Part shown: in pieces, positions 45,799 to 58,417 of the stretch
Layout of the letters: every line of letters begins with the position of its first letter
How positions within the stretch are numbered: the stretch's first letter is position 1
Assembly: GCF_003864255.1 (NCBI RefSeq)
Contig: NZ_QWEZ01000002.1
Location: forward strand, 310,001-374,000
Reading direction: 5' to 3'
From: Aestuariirhabdus litorea
GTDB lineage: Bacteria > Pseudomonadota > Gammaproteobacteria > Pseudomonadales > Aestuariirhabdaceae
Length of the DNA: 64,000 nucleotides
Position numbers and translations under genes: made by a program
Notes under the pieces: generated by a model
The model's database searches: none
Told to the model about the DNA's origin: nothing
The model's input: the letters and a program-made list of their open reading frames with translations, nothing else

Positions 45799-47154
45799 AT
45801 TAACAACCAATTTGACCACCAACACTTTAGCGACGAGCTGCTCCGGGCCAGTGCCCGACTGCAGCAGAGGCTGTTGCAGGAGAGCCGGCAGGGAATGCCA
45901 CTTCTGCAACTGGAGGAACCCCTGGGAGGGCTTGCCACTGAGGCGCTGGTTCCCTGGCTGCAGGCCAGCGACCGCTTTCCCCGTATGCTCTGGCAATCTC
46001 GCGATGGCCAGCTCACCGTTGCCGCCCTGGGTCTCGCCAGCCGTTTCAAGGCCCCCCAGGAACACCCCACCCATGCCCGCCGGATCTGGTGTGTGGCAGG
46101 CTTCGACGCCAACCAGAGCTGGAACGGCTACCCCGCCCACCTCAGCTACATCCCGGAGATCGAGCTCGAGCACAGCCCCGCCGGCTGGACCCTGCGCATC
46201 AGCCTTGGCCCCGAAACCTCTGTCGAGCAGCTGCAGCGAAGCCTGGCCACCCTGCACCGAATCAGCCCGGAGCCCGACGCTGGCCTACCCCCCGTGGTCG
46301 CCCCTGTCCGTCACCAGCCTCAGCAGCCCCAATGGTGCCAACAGGTGGGTGCGGTTCAGCGTGCAATCGCCGATGGCGAGCTGCAGAAGGTGGTACTGGC
46401 ACGCCAAAGCAGCCTCCGCTTTGAAGCGGCCCCCTCCCTCTGGTCGCTTTACCGGAGCTGGAGCCAGCAGGCTCTCAACTGCTACCGTTTTGTGTTCGAG
46501 CCCGCCCCCGGGGACGGCTTTATCAGCCTCTCCCCCGAACGCCTGATGCAGCGCAGCGGGGATCAGCTGCTGACCGAAGCGCTGGCGGGCACCGCTCCGC
46601 GGCCGAGCCAGAGCGCCGAAGCCCGCGACGCCTCCCTGGAGCTGCTGGCCGACAGTAAAAACCGCCATGAACACCAGCTGGTGATCGAGGATATTCAGCA
46701 CAAGCTGGCGTCCATCGGCCTCAGCTGCAGCCAGCGCTGCGAGACCTCGGTGCTGCAGCAGCGCGGCATCCAGCACCTGCACCAACTGCTGCAGGGCTAC
46801 GCCAACCCCATGCCCGCCGATACCCTGATCGCCCACACCCTGCACCCGACCGCGGCCGTAGGGGGGCTGCCGGGGGAGGCGGCCAGCCGCTTCCTCTGCC
46901 ACAACGAGTCCCTGGTGCGCGGATGGTACGCCGGCTACTGTGGTTACCTGGCGCCCGCGGCGGCTGAGCTGGCGGTGACCATCCGCAGTGCCCGCCTGCA
47001 GGGTAACGAACTGCAGTTGTTCGCCGGGGCCGGCATCGTCGCCCTGTCGGACCCCCTGGCCGAGTGGCAGGAGCTGGACCAGAAGATCGCCCTGCCGCTG
47101 TCGCTGTTTGTGCCGGGGGAGGAACATGTTTCCCGTCGTACATCGCTCTCCTAA
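45799..47154 (+). CDS. menF: Isochorismate synthase MenF
   Basis: An enzyme of ~451 residues making isochorismate, the first menaquinone step. Chorismate-enzyme motifs: LQKVVLARQ, ALAGTAPR, DSKNRHEHQLVIEDI, AAVGGLPGEAA and GWYAGYCGY. The start is odd. No ATG or GTG exists in frame between the stop at 45751 and the conserved core. ATT at 45799 has AAGGA eight bases before it and opens a helical INNQFDHQHF stretch; the alternative TTG at 45874 lacks a ribosome site. First gene of the men operon; overlaps menD. Confidence 0.85.
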   Translation: MNNQFDHQHFSDELLRASARLQQRLLQESRQGMPLLQLEEPLGGLATEALVPWLQASDRFPRMLWQSRDGQLTVAALGLASRFKAPQEHPTHARRIWCVAGFDANQSWNGYPAHLSYIPEIELEHSPAGWTLRISLGPETSVEQLQRSLATLHRISPEPDAGLPPVVAPVRHQPQQPQWCQQVGAVQRAIADGELQKVVLARQSSLRFEAAPSLWSLYRSWSQQALNCYRFVFEPAPGDGFISLSPERLMQRSGDQLLTEALAGTAPRPSQSAEARDASLELLADSKNRHEHQLVIEDIQHKLASIGLSCSQRCETSVLQQRGIQHLHQLLQGYANPMPADTLIAHTLHPTAAVGGLPGEAASRFLCHNESLVRGWYAGYCGYLAPAAAELAVTIRSARLQGNELQLFAGAGIVALSDPLAEWQELDQKIALPLSLFVPGEEHVSRRTSLS

Positions 47155-48868
47155 CGAGCTGCAGGCGGCACTGATTCTCGAGGAGCTGGTCCGCCACGGC
47201 GTCACCGACCTTTGCCTGGCGCCGGGATCACGCTCGGCACCGCTGGTGTTTGCCGCCGACGCCCACCCCCACCTGCGCCTGCACCACCATTTTGACGAGC
47301 GGGGGCTGGGTTTTCTTGCCCTCGGCCTCAGCAAGGCTCAGCAGCGGCCGGTGGCACTCCTCACCACCTCCGGCAGCGCCGTGGCCAACCTCTATCCGGC
47401 GGTGATCGAGGCGGCCCAGAGCGCCGTGCCCCTGATCCTGCTGACCGCCGACCGCCCCCCGCGGCTGCATGACTGTGGCGCCAACCAGGCGATCAACCAG
47501 ATCGACATCTTTGCCGGCTACCCGACCCACAGCATCTACCTGCCGCCCCCCGATGCCGGATTCTCCCCCGCCTCTCTGCTGCATCAGCTGGCACCAGCAC
47601 TGGCGGCGCAGCACGCGTTCGGCGGGGTGGTCCAGATCAACTGCATGTTCGATGAACCCCTCTACCCAAGCGGCGCCGCGCTCGACTTTTCCGCGGCGCT
47701 GACGCCGCTGGGGGGCTGGCTCAGCGAGCCGACGCCCTGGCCCGCCCCGGTCGGGCAGTCAACAACACCGCTACCCACCCGCGCCGAGTGGGAGAGCTTC
47801 TGTACCGCCCCCGGCGTGGTCGTGGCGGGCCGTCTTGACGATAACCAGCAGGCACAGGCCGTCGCCCACCTGGCTCGCGCGCTGGGCTGGCCCCTGCTCG
47901 GTGATATCCAATCCCAGCTGCGCAGCGAGCCCGACAGTTTGAAGCACAGCGACCTGTTGTTGTGCCAACACCAAGCCCAGTCGACCCTGGCGCCGCTGCG
48001 CCAGCTGCTGATGTTCGGTGATCGCCTGGTTTCCAAGCGGCTGCAGCAGTGGCTCGACAGCCACCCCTGGGAGCAGTTCTGGCTGGTCCACCCGGGCGAC
48101 AGCCCCCGCGCTCCCGGGCGCAACCAACACCGTTTCTTTGCCAGCACCGCGCTGCCCTGGTGCCAGGCGCTGCCCCCGCCCAATGCACCCGCCAACGGCC
48201 TGCGGGCGACCCTGGCGGACCTCGATACCCGCATCGCCGAGGGCCTTGCACAGCACTTCCACAGCACCCTCCCGGATGCTCCGCTCAGCGAACCGTCACT
48301 GGCCCACCGACTTTGCCGGCTGCTGCCCGACGCCCACCAGCTGTTCGCCGGTAACAGCCTCAGCATCCGCCTGCTCGACCAGCTCTCGGGGCCGCTGCCT
48401 GCCGACCTTAAGGTGCTGGCCAATCGTGGTGCCAGCGGTATCGATGGACTGCTTGCCACCGCGGCCGGTGCCGCCTGCGCCCACCCCGGTGGCACCACAT
48501 TGCTGATCGGCGATACCTCTCTGCTTTACGACCTCAACTCCCTGGCGCTGTTGCGCGGCGAGCTGGCGCTGGTGGTGGTGGTGCTCAACAACGATGGCGG
48601 CGCTATCTTTAATACCCTGCCGATCGAGGACAGCGCGCTGCGCGAGCGCCACTTCCGCTGTCCCCACCGGATGCAGTTTGAGCAGGCCTGCGCCCAGTTT
48701 GCGGTGGCCTACCGGCGGGTCGACCGCCTTACTCCCTTCGAGCAGGAGTACCGGGCCGCCCTGGCGCGCACCACCCCGACCCTGATCGAGATCTCCTGTG
48801 ATGGGGAGGAGACCGCCGCCCAGCTGCGCCGGCTCACCACCCCCGACACCCTAACCCACTTCCAATGA
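47126..48868 (+). CDS. menD: SEPHCHC synthase MenD
   Basis: A 580-residue thiamine-diphosphate enzyme that joins isochorismate and 2-oxoglutarate. It has [13 protein letters not shown] near the N-terminus, [52 protein letters not shown] and the ThDP motif [17 protein letters not shown] with LNNDGGAIF. The ATG at 47126 has AGGAAC in front and overlaps menF by 29 bp. Length is close to E. coli MenD. Confidence 0.95.
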
Positions 48869-48875
48869 GGACCCT

Positions 48876-49730
48876 ATGAAATACGGAATGAGCGAAACGG
48901 AATTGATGGCCCCGATCGACTGGCATGACCACAGCGCCGGCTACGAGGATATCCTCTACCACAAGGGGGAGGGAATCGCCCGCATCACCATCAACCGCCC
49001 GCAGGTGCACAACGCCTTCCGCCCCCTCACCGTGCAGGAGATGGAGCGCGCGCTGGCTGATGCCCGCTACGATGCCGGCATCGGCTGTGTGATCCTCACC
49101 GGCGCCGGTGGCCAGGCGTTCTGCTCCGGCGGTGACCAGTCGATCCGCGGCCGCACCGGTTACCAGGACGATGCCGGTACCGAGCACCTCAACGTGCTCG
49201 ATTTCCAACGCCAGATTCGCACCTGCCCCAAACCGGTGGTGGCCATGGTGGCCGGCTACGCCATCGGTGGCGGTCACGTCCTCCACCTGGTGTGCGACCT
49301 GACCATCGCCGCCGATAACGCCCGCTTCGGCCAGACCGGTCCGGCGGTGGGCTCCTTCGACGGCGGCTACGGCGCCAGCTATATGGCACGCATCGTGGGC
49401 CAGAAGAAGGCCCGCGAGATCTGGTTCCTGTGCCGTCAGTACGATGCCGACCAGGCACTCGAAATGGGGCTGGTCAACTGCGTGGTACCTTTGGCTGAGC
49501 TGGAGCGCGAGACGGTGCGCTGGTGCCGCGAGATGCTGCAGAACTCCCCCACCGCGCTGCGCTGCCTGAAGGCGGCCCTCAACGCCGACTGCGACGGACA
49601 GGCCGGGCTGCAGGAGCTGGCGGGTAACAGCACCCTGCTGTTCTATATGTCCGAGGAGGCGCAGGAGGGTCGTAACGCTTTTATGGAGAAGCGCCGCCCC
49701 GACTTCAACAAGTTCAAGCGCGCCCCCTAG
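48876..49730 (+). CDS. menB: 1,4-dihydroxy-2-naphthoyl-CoA synthase MenB
   Basis: A 284-residue crotonase-fold enzyme closing the naphthoquinone ring. Diagnostic parts are [32 protein letters not shown], and [22 protein letters not shown], matching MenB. Seven bases after the menD stop, with GAGG before the ATG. The gene sits between menD and menC; menH, often found here, is absent. Confidence 0.95.
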
Positions 49731-49737
49731 GGCTGCC

Positions 49738-50724
49738 ATGCTGCGCCGCGCCGCCCTCTACCGTTACCGCATCCCCCTGAGTCCGCCGCTGTCCAGCGGC
49801 GGCCGCCGCCTCAGCCACCGCGAGGGGCTGGTGGTCCGGCTTGAGCAGGGTGAACGCTGCGGAATGGGGGAGGTAGCGCCGCTGCCGGGCTTCAGCCGCG
49901 AATCCCTGTGGCAGGCGCAGCGCGAGCTGCTCCAGCAGCTGCCCCGTTGGGTGGCCGGCTTCGGTGTCCATTGCCGCCCCCCCTCCGCCGCCTTCGGCCT
50001 CTCCTGCGCCCTCGACGAACTCCGCCAGGGCGTCCCCCTGCGTCTTGTCGATCCGCTCTCCAGTGGCTATCCGCTGCTGAGCGGCGACCCCGAGCAGATT
50101 GTCGAGCGCTGGCACCACTGGCCCGAGCCCCGCCCGAGCCTGGTCAAGCTCAAACTGGGACGCCGGCCGGTTGAGGCGGAGCAGACGATGGTCGGTGAGC
50201 TGCTGTCCATCAGCCCGGGGCTGCGTTTTCGCATCGACGCCAACCGGCGCTGGAGCCCGATCGATGCCCGGCGCTGGGTCGACTGGCTGGGGCGGGAGCG
50301 TATCGACTACCTGGAAGAGCCCTGTCCGCGACTGTGGCAAAGCCTCCAGCTGGCCGATACCTGCGGGGTCGATCTGGCCCTCGACGAATCCCTGCGCGAG
50401 TCCCTGCACAATGGGCGCGGCCCACTACCGGTCCACCCGTGTTTCAAGGTGGCGGTGATCAAGCCCAGCCTCACCGGCCCCCTCGGGCAGATTGAACGCC
50501 TGATTCGCCAATGCCGGCGTCGCGGCATCACGACCCTGCTCTCCAGCAGCTACGAGTCCAGTCTGGGGATCGGGCAATTGCAGGCCCTGGCCCGGCGCCT
50601 GACCCCCGACCAGGGGCCGGGGCTCGACACCCTCGGCCCCTTCAGCCACCACCTGCTACGGCCCGCGGCCGGGGATCATGCCTGCCTCGACTGGGCGCAG
50701 CTGGAGTGCCTATGGCAGAGCTGA
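49738..50724 (+). CDS. menC: o-Succinylbenzoate synthase MenC
   Basis: A 328-residue enolase-superfamily enzyme that dehydrates SHCHC to o-succinylbenzoate. Catalytic pieces: VKLKLGR (KxK, about residue 138), FRIDANRRW (Asp ligand), YLEEPCP (Glu), LALDESL (Asp) and VIKPSL (second Lys). Eight bases after menB; its last 13 bases overlap menE. Confidence 0.93.
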   Translation: MLRRAALYRYRIPLSPPLSSGGRRLSHREGLVVRLEQGERCGMGEVAPLPGFSRESLWQAQRELLQQLPRWVAGFGVHCRPPSAAFGLSCALDELRQGVPLRLVDPLSSGYPLLSGDPEQIVERWHHWPEPRPSLVKLKLGRRPVEAEQTMVGELLSISPGLRFRIDANRRWSPIDARRWVDWLGRERIDYLEEPCPRLWQSLQLADTCGVDLALDESLRESLHNGRGPLPVHPCFKVAVIKPSLTGPLGQIERLIRQCRRRGITTLLSSSYESSLGIGQLQALARRLTPDQGPGLDTLGPFSHHLLRPAAGDHACLDWAQLECLWQS

Positions 50725-52253
50725 GCCACCCAATGGCCGAATTGACCCATCCCCTGTGGCAGGCGGCCCGGCGTCACGCCGATCGCCCCGCCCTGATCGA
50801 GGGGGAACGGGTACTGAGCTTCGCCGCCCTCTACCAGGATGCCGACGCGCTGGCCCGCCATCTGGCCGCGCAGGGGGTGCACCGCGGCGACCACCTGCTG
50901 CTGCTCGAGCCCGATCCGCTGCCGATCATACGCTGCCTGTGGGCCACCAGCCTCCTTGGGTGCGTCTGCATCCCCCTTAACCCGGCGCTGCCGGTGGCGC
51001 AGATCGAGCGCCAGCTGGCCACCGCCGACGCGCGCTGGCTAATCGGTGCCGGCAGCGGCGAAGAGGGCGAGCACATAAAGCTTCCCCCCGGCTGTCAGCA
51101 GCTCGGTTTGCCCCCCCTCAGCCTAACCGCAACCAATGCGCCGCTGGCGGCGACCCCCGAATGGCCGCCGCTGGACCCACAGACGGCGCTGACCGGAACC
51201 TTCACCTCGGGCAGCAGCGGCCATCCCAAGTTGGCGCTGCACAGCCTTGCCAACCACCGGGCCAGCGCCAAGGGGAGCGGTCAGCTTATCCCCCTCGGTG
51301 CCGGGGATGGCTGGGGGCTGACCCTGCCGCTCTACCATATCGGCGGACTGGCGATCCTGTTCCGCTGTCTGCTGGCCGGTGCCAGCCTGGTGCTGGGGGA
51401 GCGCCGCGACCTGGAGGGGTTCCTGCAGCATCCGCGGGTCACCCATCTGTCGGTGGTGGCCACCCAGCTGGTGCGCCTGCAGCGCCAGGGTCGTTCGCTG
51501 GCAGCGGGTTCCCTGCGCCACCTGCTACTGGGGGGCAGCGCCTTCCCCCGCAGCCTGCTCGACTGGCTCGCTGGCCAGCCGATCCAGTGCCATATCAGTT
51601 ACGGCCTTACCGAGATGAGCTCCCAGGTGATGACCGGCCCGGCCAACCCCGACTCCCGCATCGCCCACCTTCTGCCCGGGCGCGAGCTGCGGATCGCACC
51701 GATTGCGGGGGATGAGGGCCAGCTGGAGCCTGGTGAGGAGGAGAGTGGAAACGTCGAGGGTGAGATACTGGTGCGCGGCGACTGCCTCTGGCTGGGGTAT
51801 TACCAGCGCGGGCAGCTGCACCGCCCCCTCAACAAGGAGGGCTGGTTTCACACCCGCGACCGCGGGCAGCTCGATACCACGGGGGCGCTGCGCGTGATCG
51901 GGCGCCTCGACAACCAGTTTGTCAGCGGCGGCGAGAACGTGCAGCCGGAGCCCCTGGAGGCGATTATTCGTAGTTTCGCAGGAGGCTGCGAGGGAGGCGT
52001 TGATGGGGGCGAACCCATCGATGAGTGCTACCTGGTGCCGGTGAGTGATGCCGAATACGGCACCCGCGCGGTCTGCTTTGTGGAGCCCTTCCCCGCCGAC
52101 GGCGGCGCCGAACTGGCCCGCTGGCTACAACCGCAGCTGGCCAGCCACCAGCGCCCCCGCGCCTTCTACCCCATCCCCCCCGAACTGAAACGCGGCCTCA
52201 AGATCAGCCGCCAGCAGCTCTGCCGCTGGGCGGAGGAGCAGAGTCAGGGCTAA
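50712..52253 (+). CDS. menE: o-Succinylbenzoate-CoA ligase MenE
   Basis: A 513-residue acyl-adenylating enzyme. P-loop TFTSGSSGHPKLALHSL, then SYGLTEMSSQV, GWFHTRDRGQLDTTGALRVIGR and the C-terminal lysine region ELKRGLKISRQQL. ATG at 50712 has GGAG five bases ahead; another ATG at 50733 is possible. Last gene of the operon; the stop lies 4 bp from a recombination core of the genomic island. Confidence 0.93.
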   Translation: MAELSHPMAELTHPLWQAARRHADRPALIEGERVLSFAALYQDADALARHLAAQGVHRGDHLLLLEPDPLPIIRCLWATSLLGCVCIPLNPALPVAQIERQLATADARWLIGAGSGEEGEHIKLPPGCQQLGLPPLSLTATNAPLAATPEWPPLDPQTALTGTFTSGSSGHPKLALHSLANHRASAKGSGQLIPLGAGDGWGLTLPLYHIGGLAILFRCLLAGASLVLGERRDLEGFLQHPRVTHLSVVATQLVRLQRQGRSLAAGSLRHLLLGGSAFPRSLLDWLAGQPIQCHISYGLTEMSSQVMTGPANPDSRIAHLLPGRELRIAPIAGDEGQLEPGEEESGNVEGEILVRGDCLWLGYYQRGQLHRPLNKEGWFHTRDRGQLDTTGALRVIGRLDNQFVSGGENVQPEPLEAIIRSFAGGCEGGVDGGEPIDECYLVPVSDAEYGTRAVCFVEPFPADGGAELARWLQPQLASHQRPRAFYPIPPELKRGLKISRQQLCRWAEEQSQG

Positions 52254-52257
52254 GGGT

Positions 52258-52277
52258 TATTCGATATTCTTGATCTG
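52258..52277. repeat. Island left attachment core (attL)
   Basis: TATTCGATATTCTTGATCTG matches the site at 57552-57571 at 16 of 20 bases. Read on the minus strand with the base before it, it encodes QIKNIE and a stop, the same ending as YicC (QIQNIE-stop). This is probably the original yicC tail, displaced by the inserted element. It starts 4 bp after the menE stop. Confidence 0.75.
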
Positions 52278-52700
52278 AATGTTTTTTGTTCGGATCTATC
52301 CACTATATCTAGTGGCCTGCAGGTCTTTTATCGCAAAGCACGACGCCGTTTGGTTACCGATTTGTTTACCAGTCGGCCCTCTGCTAGCAACAATGGCGAG
52401 CTCGAATAGGTTAGCTTTAGTCAGCATTTCACTGTTCATTGCCAATAAAGGCGCCACTTCTAATTGGCCCTATTTTAACCCAATCGGCGCCAGTTTAGCT
52501 GGCACCGTTCCACTGCAGCGCCACACAAAGCGTCACAGCACCCGCAGAAGAAGCGCTCAACTCGAGAATATCCAGGTCACTCGCAGGTTCGCCGTATTCG
52601 AACATGGCTACCGGAATAGCCGTAAACGTCATTAATGCTATCAGAGCGATAGCTTGAGTAAAGCAAGGCAATAGAAGACCAAGCAACGATGCGACCGACT
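52278..52700. other. Non-coding left part of island
   Basis: About 420 bp between the attachment core and the transposon. It holds GGTTACC at 52352-52358 and GTTTACC at 52364-52370, part of the arm-site repeats seen near the integrase. Two short open frames cross here on opposite strands; neither has a ribosome site or known motifs, though a minus-strand frame (52495-52752) has a hydrophobic core. I regard the stretch as decayed DNA. Confidence 0.5.
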
Positions 52701-52701
52701 G

Positions 52702-53915
52702 TGTGTTGATGGTATTTACCTGACAGTCGGCCCCTGAAACAAGAGTGGTCATAGTGCCCCCAGAGGGTTATAGGACGAGTGTCTGACGCTCGACTGTAAC
52801 TTCACAAGGAAACGACTATGACCACTAACGAGAAAGTAGCACAACGCAAGCTCAGTCTCCTAGAACTGGCAAGAGATCTTCAGAACGTTAGCAAGGCCTG
52901 CAAGGTGATGGGGTATTCCCGTCAACAGTTCTATGAGATCCGGCGTAACTATCAAACCTTCGGCTCTGACGGCCTGATCGACAAGCTGCCTGGACCCCGC
53001 GGCCCCCACCCCAAGCGCGTCTGCGGTGAAGTCGAACAAGCCATCCTTGCCCACAGTTTGAAGTTTCCCACCAACGAGCCGGTGCGCGTCTCTCAAGAGC
53101 TTGCCCTTGAGGGCGTTCAAGTCAGCTCTGGCGGCGTCCGTGGTGTTTGGAGTCGCCATAATCTGTTGACCCGCCACGAGCGCCTTCTGCGCCTGGAGCG
53201 CACGACTCGGGAGCAAAAGATTGAGCTGAGCGATGACCAAATCCGGCTGCTGGAGCGCTTCAGTCCCGAGTTTAGAGAGCGCTACATTGAGGTCCACCAC
53301 ACCGGGGATCTGATAGCGGTGGACACCTTCTTCGTGGGTACCCTAAAGGGCGTCGGAAAGGTATACCTGCAGTCGGTAATCGACTGTTATAGCCGCTATG
53401 CTTTGGGGCGGCTGTACACTAACAAGCTACCGGTCACGGCCGCACACGTCTTCAACAGCGATGACTACCGTTCTTTAAGTCTCACAAGGCGCGGATCTCC
53501 ACCATCCTTAGTGATAACGGACGGGATTTCTGCGGCCGGAAAGACCACCACCCGTACGAGCTATTTCTCCAGCTGGAGGAGATCGAGCATCGGACGACTC
53601 GGGTTCGCCGACCACAAAGCAACGGCTTTATCGAACGGCTGCATCGTACACTGCTGGATGAGCACTTCCGCATCCAAGGGCGAACTAAATGGTATGAGAC
53701 CGTCGATGAGATGCAGAAGGATCTGGAAGAATACCTGGTACTGTACAACACCAAGCGGCCCCACCAGGGCCGCAACATGAAGGGCCAAGTGTCCTATACG
53801 GTGTTCAAAAAAGGACTGCCAAGACCCACCAAAACGGAGGGCAAGAATGCTGCTGAAAAAGCTGCTTACATAGAATGCCCACTGGGGCATGTGTCAGGGG
53901 AATACCATCACTGTA
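52702..53915 (+). mobile_element. IS481-like insertion sequence
   Basis: A ~1.2-kb element. Its inverted ends share TGATGGTATT..CCTGACA: TGATGGTATTTACCTGACA at 52707-52725 and, on the other strand, TGATGGTATTCCCCTGACA at 53892-53910 (17 of 19 match). It contains one transposase gene with a frameshift. The outermost bases and the target duplication could not be fixed. Sits inside the yicC island. Confidence 0.75.
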
Positions 53916-54040
53916 CAAACTATATACTTGTTGAGGTGAGGCGATCATCAAATATTCATCCTCCTACTTGGGCGTGTGCTAGCCTTAAAAACTGGGCTGT
54001 TCTATGTTTTCTTGTGGGTGAAATGCATCTGTTGGTCTAA
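52818..54040 (+). pseudogene. IS481-family transposase, frameshifted
   Basis: The first ~215 codons read as an IS481 transposase: N-terminal HTH (LARDLQNVSKACKVMGYSRQ) and DDE-domain start (VDTFFVGTLKGVGKVYLQSVIDCYSRYALGRLYT). At about 53466-53470 one base is lost, and the rest continues in the next frame: TILSDNGRDFCGRKDHHP, QSNGFIERLHRTLLDEHF and YNTKRPHQGRNMKG. All three catalytic acids (D, D, E) are present but split over two frames. The second frame has no stop before 54040, beyond the IS end. ISs of this family are not known to need frameshifting, so it is probably dead. Confidence 0.8.
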
Positions 54041-54089
54041 CTCACGATAGAAATAAACTCATACGGATATAACAAGAGGCGATTCTGGA

Positions 54090-54824
54090 ATGACCTGCCC
54101 CATACTTATGTATCATTTTATAGGCGATCCGGAAGACCCAGCTGATTCGCCTTATTTTGTATCCTCAGAAAAATTTGATGAGCAAATGAAGCGCCTAAAA
54201 AAAAGAGGATTTAAATCTATCAGTCTGGGCCATCTATTTAATCATCTTTATAGAGATGAAGCTCTTCCTGATAAATCGGTAGTTATAACATTTGATGATG
54301 GTCACTTGTCCTTTTATGAAAAAGCCATGCCCGTTCTTGAGAAATATGACCTAACGGCAACAAATTTTATTATTACTGAAAGAGCTGGCAAGAAAAACTT
54401 TATGACCTGGGAACAAATAAATCGCGCGAAACTGAAAGGTTTTTCTATTGAGTCGCATTCTGTTACCCACAGAGTACTAACAAAAATCAACAGATCTGAA
54501 GTAGTGAATGAGGCGTTAGTGTCAAAAAAGACAATAGAAAAAAAATTAAATTCCGATGTGAGGTTTTTTTGTTATAGGGGCGGCCATTATAACGAAGAAA
54601 TTAAAAGCATTGTTGAATCTTGTGGATATGATGCTTCGGTTTGTTCCCGTTATGGCGTTAACAACTCATCAACAGACAGGTATGAATTAAAGAGAGTGCC
54701 TATTCGAGGAACGGATGATTTAGGAATATTTCTTGCAAAAATACACGGCTATGACTGGCAGCGTTTACATGGGCGACTATTTGCAAAATACCTTGAGCCA
54801 TTGAAAATACATAGTCTTAAATGA
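54090..54824 (+). CDS. Polysaccharide deacetylase-family protein
   Basis: A 244-residue NodB-fold protein. It has MYHFIGD at the N-terminus, the first motif TFDDGH (catalytic and metal Asp, about residue 70), and ESHSVTH (metal His pair, about 125), then YRGGHYNEEI. No signal peptide, so probably cytosolic. Removes acetyl groups from sugars in cell-surface or secreted glycans. Base composition is AT-rich, unlike its housekeeping neighbours, in line with foreign origin. Followed by a sulfotransferase gene 56 bp later; both may modify one surface polymer. Confidence 0.83.
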   Translation: MTCPILMYHFIGDPEDPADSPYFVSSEKFDEQMKRLKKRGFKSISLGHLFNHLYRDEALPDKSVVITFDDGHLSFYEKAMPVLEKYDLTATNFIITERAGKKNFMTWEQINRAKLKGFSIESHSVTHRVLTKINRSEVVNEALVSKKTIEKKLNSDVRFFCYRGGHYNEEIKSIVESCGYDASVCSRYGVNNSSTDRYELKRVPIRGTDDLGIFLAKIHGYDWQRLHGRLFAKYLEPLKIHSLK

Positions 54825-54880
54825 TCTGCATATGCTGGCGCCAGCATGGGGATCTTTAAAAAACACGGTTGGAAAATAAT

Positions 54881-55729
54881 ATGCTACCTGACTTTGTTGT
54901 TATTGGCGGGATGAAGTGCGGCTCTACATCGCTACTGAGATATTTAAACTATCATCCAGATATAATACTACCTAGAAACATAAAAAACCTAGAGTTCTTT
55001 GATGAGAAAGAAAATTGGAACAAAGGGCTAAATTGGTACGAATCCTTCTTTCCAAAAGAAAAAAACAAAGGCCAAGTTTTCGGAGAAGTTTCTACAGAGT
55101 ATACAAAGCATCCCGACACCAATAATGTGGCAAAAAACCTAGCCAAAACCATACCAAATGCAAAGCTAATATACGTTATTAGGCATCCGTACAAAAGACT
55201 AATATCTCACTATATACATCAAGTTGGTGCAGGTTTAGAGCAAAGAAAAATAAACACCATATTGCGTAATATTGACAATATGTACGTAAGGTATAGCCTA
55301 TATGGCTATCAACTTGAGCAATATCTTGATTTCTTTTCACCATCCAAAATACTTGTCTTGACGTCAGAAGAATTGAGGCGTGACAAAGATAAAGCACTTT
55401 CTAGAATTTTTAGATTTATTGGCGTAGATGAGTCTTTTAAGGTTGGCAATAATGTTTCATTAAACACTAGCGCCGAAAGGAAAAAATGGAACTCTATAGG
55501 TAGGCTTATAAGAAGGTCGAGTAGAAATTACAACGCATATTGCTATTACAAAAACAAGTACCCAAGGTCGATGAGGATCGCAGATCTGCTTTTATGCTCC
55601 GCTGTAAATGTCGATTCTTTATCAAAAGAAAGCAAAGAAAAAATCAGCCCGCTATTTATTGAAGATATTAAAAAAATTGAAGATACATTTGGCCTTGATC
55701 TTTCTGGCTGGTCTTTTGATGAAGTTTGA
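54881..55729 (+). CDS. Sulfotransferase domain protein
   Basis: A 282-residue protein. The 5'-phosphosulfate loop is VVIGGMKCGSTSLLRYL (residues ~8-20), and the 3'-phosphate part is LIYVIRHPYKRLISHY (about 94-110), the two PAPS-binding signatures of heparan-type sulfotransferases. It moves sulfate from PAPS to a sugar or lipid acceptor, unknown here. Start at ATG 54881, preceded by GGA; an in-frame TTG at 54869 is less likely. AT-rich, like the deacetylase before it. Ends at an intrinsic terminator. Confidence 0.85.
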   Translation: MLPDFVVIGGMKCGSTSLLRYLNYHPDIILPRNIKNLEFFDEKENWNKGLNWYESFFPKEKNKGQVFGEVSTEYTKHPDTNNVAKNLAKTIPNAKLIYVIRHPYKRLISHYIHQVGAGLEQRKINTILRNIDNMYVRYSLYGYQLEQYLDFFSPSKILVLTSEELRRDKDKALSRIFRFIGVDESFKVGNNVSLNTSAERKKWNSIGRLIRRSSRNYNAYCYYKNKYPRSMRIADLLLCSAVNVDSLSKESKEKISPLFIEDIKKIEDTFGLDLSGWSFDEV

Positions 55730-55736
55730 TTTTTGG

Positions 55737-55787
55737 GGCAATATACGATAGCTAATATCGCATATTTAAAATTATTGCCTTTTTTTG
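55737..55787 (+). terminator. Terminator after the sulfotransferase gene
   Basis: GGCAATA (55737-55743) pairs with TATTGCC (55773-55779), an inner CGATA/TATCG stem lies between them, and eight T follow. It closes the deacetylase-sulfotransferase transcript. Confidence 0.7.
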
Positions 55788-55873
55788 TCCGCATCAACTG
55801 AATTCAAAGCTTGTCAGAGGATGTCACATTAATATCATTTTTAAGGCCATCTGAGTCGCTATGAAATTTTCCA

Positions 55874-56032
55874 TTAATAACTCTTCCGGAGACAAAGCAG
55901 CGGTTTAAAAATCCCTCCTAGGAGCTCTCTTCGGGGCGATACCAGCCAATAAGTTGCCGCACTCGAAGCTTCCGCTTTGTATATGGACTCCTCCGGCACA
56001 GCAATCAGGCGGCGTAATCTATAAAATCTCAT
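55874..56032 (-). CDS. Short open frame, 52 residues, unknown
   Basis: Begins with ATG overlapping the TGA of the preceding disrupted frame (ATGA), reads MRFYRLRRLIAVPEES and ends LCLRKSY. No known motif. The overlap suggests that it once was translated after its neighbour; it could be a truncated gene. Low confidence. Confidence 0.3.
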   Translation of the reverse strand: MRFYRLRRLIAVPEESIYKAEASSAATYWLVSPRRELLGGIFKPLLCLRKSY

Positions 56033-56394
56033 CGAGACAGCGGTACTAACTCGGGGGAATGGTCATCAGCCGCTTGCAGGTCAAAAAAGTTTTTTGGGAA
56101 TATTGATCTGCCTGAGCCAAGCCTTGGCCCAATTTCATCATTGAGCCTACGGTCTGCCTCGAGGTTGTCTTGATATTTAATAATAACTTTGCCACTAAAT
56201 ACCTGTTCAATATCTTCCTCGTTTTTATGATCGCGATATCGTTTTAAAAATGACCTATTTTGTAACTACTCGAGAAGTTCTGGCAGCGTAAGATTTAAGA
56301 GAACATCATAATTACTGATGTTGAACAATTTTGGTAATTGTTTGTGGAATTTATTTGCTTCACAGATAGTCCTCTTTTTATATACAAAGAATAT
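56029..56394 (-). pseudogene. Disrupted reading frame with one in-frame TAG
   Basis: From 56394 to 56029 on the minus strand the frame is open for 121 codons apart from a TAG at 56266-56268. The reading is protein-like (NKFHKQLPKLFNISNYDVL before the stop; LKRYRDHKNEEDIEQVFSG, KVIIKYQDNLEADRRL and GPRLGSGRSIFPKNFFD after). No ATG start lies in the first part, so it is also truncated at the N-terminus. Family not recognised. The AT-rich composition matches the island cargo. Confidence 0.5.
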
Positions 56395-56405
56395 TTAGTT
56401 TCATA

Positions 56406-57354
56406 TCAGGTATCGATATTTATAAACGGAGAAACTACTTTCGCCACTTCGCTTAAAGCTTTGCGGCGCTCCTGTAAATAGTCATACCGGTCATAAATCC
56501 CTTCCACTCCTTTCAATTTGTGATTGAGCCAGCTCTCGGCGATGTGAGGAGGGGTACCGATACGTGCAAGAAGGGAGCGGAAGCTGCACCGAAGGTCGTG
56601 TACTGTGAAGTGTTGAATCACGTTGGCCTCTGCAAGTTTGTTTAGCGCCGCATTTAGGGTGTCAGGGCTCATGTGTGGATAACGCTTACTTGTCCTTCGG
56701 CGCGGGAAGAAATAGCTGCTACCGCACGCCCTTACCTTTAACTCTTCTAGCAAGAGATGGCTGCGGCAGATAAGGGGATCAATATGGACGTTCCCATCTT
56801 TGTGCGGTGTTCCGATAGTGGCCATAGCCCCTTATCGAGATCGAAGTCCTGCCACATCAACGCCAATGCATCGTTGCTAGGGTCGGACGCTTGCTGGCAG
56901 TGACCTTTTGAATAACAATGCGAACGTCTCTTGGAGTGACGGCGTCGACTGTGAGCCCCCCGATAACCGGCTGGATGTCGCGTTCGTACTTTCGCCGGGG
57001 GATCCTGGGATGTTTAAGCCGCTTAGAGTGCTGGCTGTACCAGTCCTCAAATAGTTCATCAGTGGTACGGATAGCCATCTGCTCTTCGCGATGGCGCTCT
57101 GCTACTGGATCAGTACTATCTTTGGCAATTTTGTCTCTTAACCGTCCTGCTTCGGTACGGGCGCTAGACAGAGATAGGCGTTCGTAGTTGCCGATGGTGA
57201 AGATCCTGCGTTTTCCGTTGGCTGTGTAGCGGAGCGCCCAGTACGCCTTGCCTGCGGCGCGAAGGCATAGGTAAAGACCATCGCCATCTGCGAAGCGCCC
57301 GGCATCCCCGGACTTGATGATCGCTGTGATGGCCTTGTCGGTGAGCTTTCCCAT
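56406..57354 (-). pseudogene. P4-type tyrosine integrase, inactivated
   Basis: The N-terminal part (57354-56857) carries the DUF4102 arm-binding domain, GDGLYLCLRAAGKAYWALRY. The C-terminal part (56825-56406) keeps HDLRCSFRSLL (catalytic His and Arg) and the LNHKLKGVEGIYDRY tail with the nucleophilic Tyr. Between them the frame changes: WQDFDLDKGLW is in another frame and a further shift is needed to reach EELKVRACGS. The region that should hold the first catalytic Arg (~100 residues) is missing. A P4-type integrase is normally ~400 residues. It sits next to the right attachment core and cannot be active. Confidence 0.85.
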
Positions 57355-57386
57355 CTACCACCTCCCTGACCACTGGGTAAAAATTT

Positions 57387-57442
57387 GGTTACCGTGCCTT
57401 GGTTACCAGTTTAGTTACCATTCTGTTACCGATTTGGTTACC
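57387..57442. repeat. GGTTACC repeats near the integrase
   Basis: Five copies of (G)GTTACC lie within 56 bp, at 57387, 57401, 57414, 57425 and 57436, several preceded by TTT. Related copies at 52352 and 52364 lie near the other end. Repeats in this setting are usual for the arm sites bound by the integrase N-terminal domain. Confidence 0.65.
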
Positions 57443-57481
57443 ACCGTTATAAGTACAACAGAGTCAGCTTGAGAACACCAT

Positions 57482-57511
57482 AAAACAAAAAGCCCCTTTT
57501 TATAGGGGCTT
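57482..57511 (-). terminator. Terminator downstream of yicC
   Basis: On the minus strand an AAGCCCCT/AGGGGCTT stem with a 6-base loop is followed by TTTGTTTT. It lies inside the island boundary, between the right attachment core and the integrase, so the element supplies the terminator that yicC now uses. Confidence 0.75.
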
Positions 57512-57550
57512 GTATGGGTGATTCTGGACGAGCGAGTTCAGATCAGGTCG

Positions 57551-58417
57551 CTATTCAATATTCTGAATCTGCTCGCGCATCTGCTCGATCAGCACCTTGA
57601 GGTTAACTGCTATCTGGGTGGTGCCGGCGTTGATCGATTTGGAGCCCAGGGTGTTGGCTTCGCGGTTGAGCTCCTGCATCAGGAAGTCGAGGCGGCGGCC
57701 GATGGCGCCGCCGCTTTTCAGCACCCGTGATACCTCGGTGATGTGCACCTGCAGACGGTCGAGCTCCTCCTCCACGTCGGAGCGCTGGGTGATCAGCACC
57801 ATCTCCTGCTCCAAGCGACCGGGGTCGAGCTCGACACCGGCCTCTTCGATGCGCTGCTGCATGCGCTGGCGCTGGCGCTCGAGGATCTCGGGCATCAGGG
57901 TGCGCACCTGCTCGGCCTCATCGGCAACCCCCTTGAGGCGCTGCTCGATAAAGTCGCGCAGCTCGGCGCCCTCGCGCTCGCGCCCCTCTATCAGCTGCGC
58001 CAGGGCCTGGTTGAAGACGCCCAGGGCATCGCCGTGCACCTGCTTCATATCAAACTCCTGCTGCTGCAGCACACCTGGCCACTGTAACAGGGCCAGGGGG
58101 TCGGGCAGGGCGCAATCGTAGAAACTGGCCTGTACCTGCTTGAGCGCCTTCTGCAGCTGGTCACACATATCGCTGTTGACCACCAGCTCACCGGCCACAC
58201 CGGCGGCGATCTGGTAGCGCAGGCTGCACTCCACCTTGCCGCGGGTCAGCCGCTTGCGCAGCTGCTCGCGCAGGGGAAACTCCAGCTCCCGCAGCGCCTC
58301 CGGCAGGCGAAAGCTGGGCTCCAGGTAACGGTGGTTGACCGAGCGAATCTCCCAGGCCAGCGAGCCCCATTCAAACTGTGCCTCCTGGCGAGCAAATGCC
58401 GTCATGCTACTTGTCAT
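57551..58417 (-). CDS. yicC: YicC family endoribonuclease-type protein
   Basis: A 288-residue YicC protein. MTSSMTAFARQEAQFEWGSL is the family N-terminus, followed by EIRSVNHRYLEPSFRLPEAL and, near the C-terminus, GGAIGRRLDFLMQELNREANT and INAGTTQIAVNLKVLIEQMREQ. E. coli YicC acts as an RNase in RNA turnover. The ATG at 58417 has AAGGGA six bases ahead; an upstream in-frame start lacks support. Its last codons are the attachment core of the genomic island. It diverges from rph, which is next to yicC in many related genomes. Confidence 0.92.
   Translation of the reverse strand: MTSSMTAFARQEAQFEWGSLAWEIRSVNHRYLEPSFRLPEALRELEFPLREQLRKRLTRGKVECSLRYQIAAGVAGELVVNSDMCDQLQKALKQVQASFYDCALPDPLALLQWPGVLQQQEFDMKQVHGDALGVFNQALAQLIEGREREGAELRDFIEQRLKGVADEAEQVRTLMPEILERQRQRMQQRIEEAGVELDPGRLEQEMVLITQRSDVEEELDRLQVHITEVSRVLKSGGAIGRRLDFLMQELNREANTLGSKSINAGTTQIAVNLKVLIEQMREQIQNIE
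57552..57571. repeat. Island right attachment core (attR) inside the yicC 3' end
   Basis: TATTCAATATTCTGAATCTG covers the last codons of yicC (QIQNIE plus stop). It is 16/20 identical to 52258-52277, with most differences at wobble positions, so insertion kept the YicC ending intact. Confidence 0.75.

Follow-up and report, generated by a model that had tools for sequence, protein, structure and literature searches.

A decayed genomic island in the last codons of yicC in Aestuariirhabdus litorea, very probably placed by a yicC-specific tyrosine integrase

We analysed a stretch of 64,000 nucleotides from Aestuariirhabdus litorea (the window), in which a segment of 5.3 kb lies between menE and yicC and meets the end of the yicC tail exactly. 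This segment is very probably a degenerate integrative genomic island, inserted into the last codons of yicC by a yicC-specific tyrosine integrase. The 3′ end of yicC is already published as an island target, and the island described here is a fossil member of that kind. Its features are listed in Table 1.

Table 1. The island and its chromosomal neighbours, in left-to-right order (positions in the window)
Feature	Position	Strand	Remarks
menE, left chromosomal neighbour	50712..52253	+	AMP-binding domain; last gene of the men cluster, which comes after gmk in both this genome and G002
Distal core copy (attR-like, putative displaced original yicC tail)	52258..52277	-	17/20 match to the yicC tail; encodes QIKNIE-stop; minus-strand reading CAGATCAAGAATATCGAATA
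Arm-type repeat near left end, GTTACCGATTTGTTTACCA	52351..52371	+	same 19-bp motif at right end, 0 expected by chance
IS remnant (IS481-like by residues seen, not by a family match)	52707..53910	+	19-nt terminal inverted repeats, 89% complementary; HTH domains; transposase frameshifted near 53480
Polysaccharide deacetylase, cargo	54090..54824	+	PF01522, E 2e-28
Sulfotransferase, cargo	54869..55729	+	PF00685, E 2e-17
Tyrosine integrase pseudogene, yicC-specific family	56406..57354	-	Arm-DNA-bind_3, Phage_int_M, Phage_integrase; ~85 codons missing and frame changes; family from tree position
Arm-type repeats near right end	57386..57443	+	TGGTTACC repeats and the 19-bp motif common to the left end
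yicC-side core copy (attL-like)	57552..57571	-	overlaps 3′ end of yicC; encodes QIQNIE; minus-strand reading CAGATTCAGAATATTGAATA
yicC, intact, 294 aa	57551..58435	-	full YicC-like N and C domains

The segment is bounded by two core copies in the same orientation, the left of which begins 4 bp past the menE stop codon. A preliminary description of this DNA had reported a 20-bp direct repeat with 16 of 20 positions matching; both copies were found in place and on the same strand, but their identity is 17 of 20. Two of the three differences fall at synonymous third codon positions, in agreement with the earlier remark that the QIQNIE and QIKNIE ends differ mostly at wobble positions. When the whole genome was searched with the core pattern, allowing two mismatches, only two matches were obtained, and the reversed control gave none. 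Among 60 islands simulated with a Markov model, chance matches to the yicC tail reached 15 of 20 at most, which speaks against a chance origin of the repeat.

Base composition changes across the segment, from a GC content of about 0.68–0.71 in menE to 0.35–0.58 in the island and 0.61–0.66 in yicC. A 19-bp motif, GTTACCGATTTGKTTACCA, occurs once near each end of the island, just inside it and with zero mismatches. Chance alone would not be expected to yield it in the window, and both ends are therefore tied to one element. The unique direct repeat at both ends, together with this shared motif inside them, argues for an island origin. The terminal repeats may be the arm sites of the integrase, judging by their position and by its arm-binding domain. 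The initial view of this 5.3 kb as AT-rich mobile-element DNA holds. No excisionase of the rdfM or AlpA-like type was recognised among the listed open reading frames, which cover the small ones in part. A second place in the genome (G000:C2:649396-649442, L002) matches a 46-bp stretch of the island (56011–56056) at 85% identity.

The N-terminal part of the integrase pseudogene contains the Arm-DNA-bind_3 and Phage_int_M domains, and the C-terminal part the Phage_integrase domain. Compared with intact relatives, roughly codons 160–244 are absent, including the first catalytic Arg, which is conserved in a GVRK motif, and the reading frame changes at least twice. The island thus has no functional integrase of the kind that characterises yicC-specific islands (IntyicC), and because of the lost codons and frame changes we class it as a decayed relic and not as an active member. 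By the same token, movement by its own integrase would not be expected, and the island is presumably immobile at present. It does have other marks of an IntyicC island, namely an integrase within the clade, insertion at the 3′ end, a duplicated core and an intact yicC. In a maximum-likelihood tree the integrase grouped within the clade of yicC-adjacent enzymes; its branch is long, of unsure exact place, and away from the integrase of Aestuariirhabdus sp. CSMAG_2910 (G002). No close relatives of the island's integrase were found in viral contigs.

The five best integrase matches within the order (G038, G007, G050, G002 and G042) are all encoded directly downstream of yicC. We then considered 69 family loci in named genomes, whose members are about 40% identical or more. 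At 64 of these the yicC end lies 153–379 bp upstream of the integrase, on the same strand. Three others are cut by contig ends, with the core still visible in two, and in the remaining two (L152 and L166) a bare core copy, and not yicC, stands directly upstream of the integrase, at about 9784; these look like tandem islands at the yicC site. The yicC tail is complete at 57 loci and reads QIQNIE in 46, the others being QVQNIE, QAQNIE or QIANIE. By contrast, none of six remote integrases (34% identity or less) has yicC nearby. More distant integrases from a class-wide search, at most 47% identical, lie on contigs other than that of yicC in G200, G195, G387, G260 and G272, which agrees with yicC specificity being confined to the closer family. 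That the window's integrase is nested in a clade with yicC at 64 of 69 loci, and that the six remote ones lack it, argues for an island origin. So do two E. coli strains, GABEEC10 and E14, which have the same arrangement and integrases 62% identical to the intact G002 protein.

Relatives provide both an empty site and other islands. In another genome of the genus (G001), gmk and spoT come next after yicC, in that order, and this region contains a single core copy and no integrase gene; in the window's genome (G000), spoT and gmk precede the men cluster, which is followed by the core, the island and finally yicC. A different island occupies this site in G002, where a core copy lies 5 bp past menE, beyond gmk and the men cluster, and is followed by island DNA; the yicC side carries an intact integrase and lies on a separate contig from the menE-side island end. 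The menE-side core of G002 shares AATATAGA-TGACCG, including the TGA stop, with the yicC tail of the empty site in G001, whereas the yicC of G002 itself now has a TAG stop. Displacement of the original tail, with a new one coming from the island, would be expected to leave such a pattern. Whole islands with two cores lie between yicC and gmk in G007 (about 8.3 kb, with an exact core repeat of 16 bp) and, similarly, in Terasakiella L148 (about 10 kb). The one-core empty site, the two-core islands and the stop codons of G002 each argue for an island origin.

The preliminary description had proposed that an integrase acted at the 3′ end of yicC and kept the gene intact, and that the yicC tail served as attB. 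The yicC-adjacent family, the single core of G001 and the intact yicC support this reading; use of this gene end as an attachment site was already published. Two observations bear on the checks suggested at that stage: the element-free relative G001 has one core copy, not both, and integrases of the family lie beside yicC at 64 of 69 loci in named genomes.

We infer the recombination event itself, and its exact crossover point, as follows. A tyrosine integrase of the yicC-specific family would have placed the island in the last codons of yicC, and the yicC tail would have been split by strand exchange inside the core of roughly 20 bp. The island would have given yicC a near-synonymous end and stop codon, and the original tail would have been pushed to the far end, beside menE. 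Later the functional integrase would have been lost and an insertion sequence taken in. The deacetylase and sulfotransferase genes are the cargo of the island. Against an island origin stand the broken integrase, the different contigs of the two island ends in G002, and the missing example of an uninterrupted menE–yicC junction considered below.

That the repeat instead arose by chance or is a relic of a partial yicC duplication, the AT-rich DNA having arrived by transposition or other recombination, is highly improbable. The IS remnant inside the segment and the imperfect identity of the core copies would suit such an origin, but simulated islands did not reach the observed match, the copies enclose both the remnant of a yicC-specific integrase and matching terminal repeats, and the same arrangement recurs in many genomes. 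The history of the left flank is a separate matter. The men (menaquinone) cluster occupies positions 45874–52253 of the window. In two of three examined genomes of the genus (G000 and G002) it is located in the interval from gmk to yicC. In G001, whose yicC and gmk are direct neighbours, the search gave no menE ortholog. It is unlikely that the men cluster and the island came together or successively at the yicC site, so that yicC–gmk and not yicC–menE was the junction before the first insertion. This would fit the finding of yicC beside gmk in G001 and, with an island in between, in G007 and L148, the absence of menE from the G001 search results, and the apparent tandem islands of L152 and L166. 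However, neither the genome as a whole nor the interval from gmk to menF yielded a third core copy that would place the men cluster inside an island. Moreover, in G000 and G002 alike, whose integrases are nevertheless apart in the tree, the distance from menE to the far core is 4–5 bp, which fits menE–yicC adjacency before both insertions. The more specific version, in which the men cluster entered the lineage through the same attachment site within an older island that later lost its outer core, is improbable.

We therefore return to insertion of the island between neighbouring menE and yicC. Their adjacency before insertion, as first proposed, is well supported for this lineage by the gene order around two apparently independent islands (G000 and G002), including the far core 5 bp from menE in G002. 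It is less secure in that no uninterrupted menE–yicC junction was found among the menE homologs of the order that were inspected, including those of G418 and G008, in which menE and yicC are far apart or on different contigs, and the more ancient neighbour of yicC is probably gmk.

Dedicated tyrosine integrases are known to insert MGIVflInd1 and SGI1-like mobilizable islands at the 3′ end of yicC, the enzyme being intMGI (PMC4344509, PMC8409611), and relatives of Shewanella GI21, of the GISpuPO1 type, form an island family with the same target (PMC8978831). The present island resembles MGIVflInd1, as published, in the dedicated tyrosine integrase at this gene end (PMC4344509, PMC8409611). By description, however, MGIVflInd1 is mobilizable and carries intMGI, rdfM, cds4 and transfer signals, whereas here the integrase is broken and rdfM and cds4 were not recognised. 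It shares with GI21 the yicC target and an integrase beside one attachment site, but GI21 is excisable, its integrase is intact and it also has HipAB and an AlpA-like excisionase (PMC8978831), as against a cargo of deacetylase and sulfotransferase in the present island. The yicC islands of E. coli GABEEC10 and E14 likewise have the integrase directly downstream of yicC, but their integrases are annotated as complete and the neighbouring cargo is different.

With these results, the genus Aestuariirhabdus joins the known hosts of islands that target yicC. One genus now offers an empty site, a fossil island and a different island, as material for studying the reuse of one attachment site. More widely, the integrase family follows one gene end tightly across Gamma-, Beta- and Alphaproteobacteria. 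Seven genomes, from Halomonadaceae and one unclassified relative (L096, L097 and L099-L103), encode protein-identical integrases, which hints that a single yicC island has recently moved between genera.
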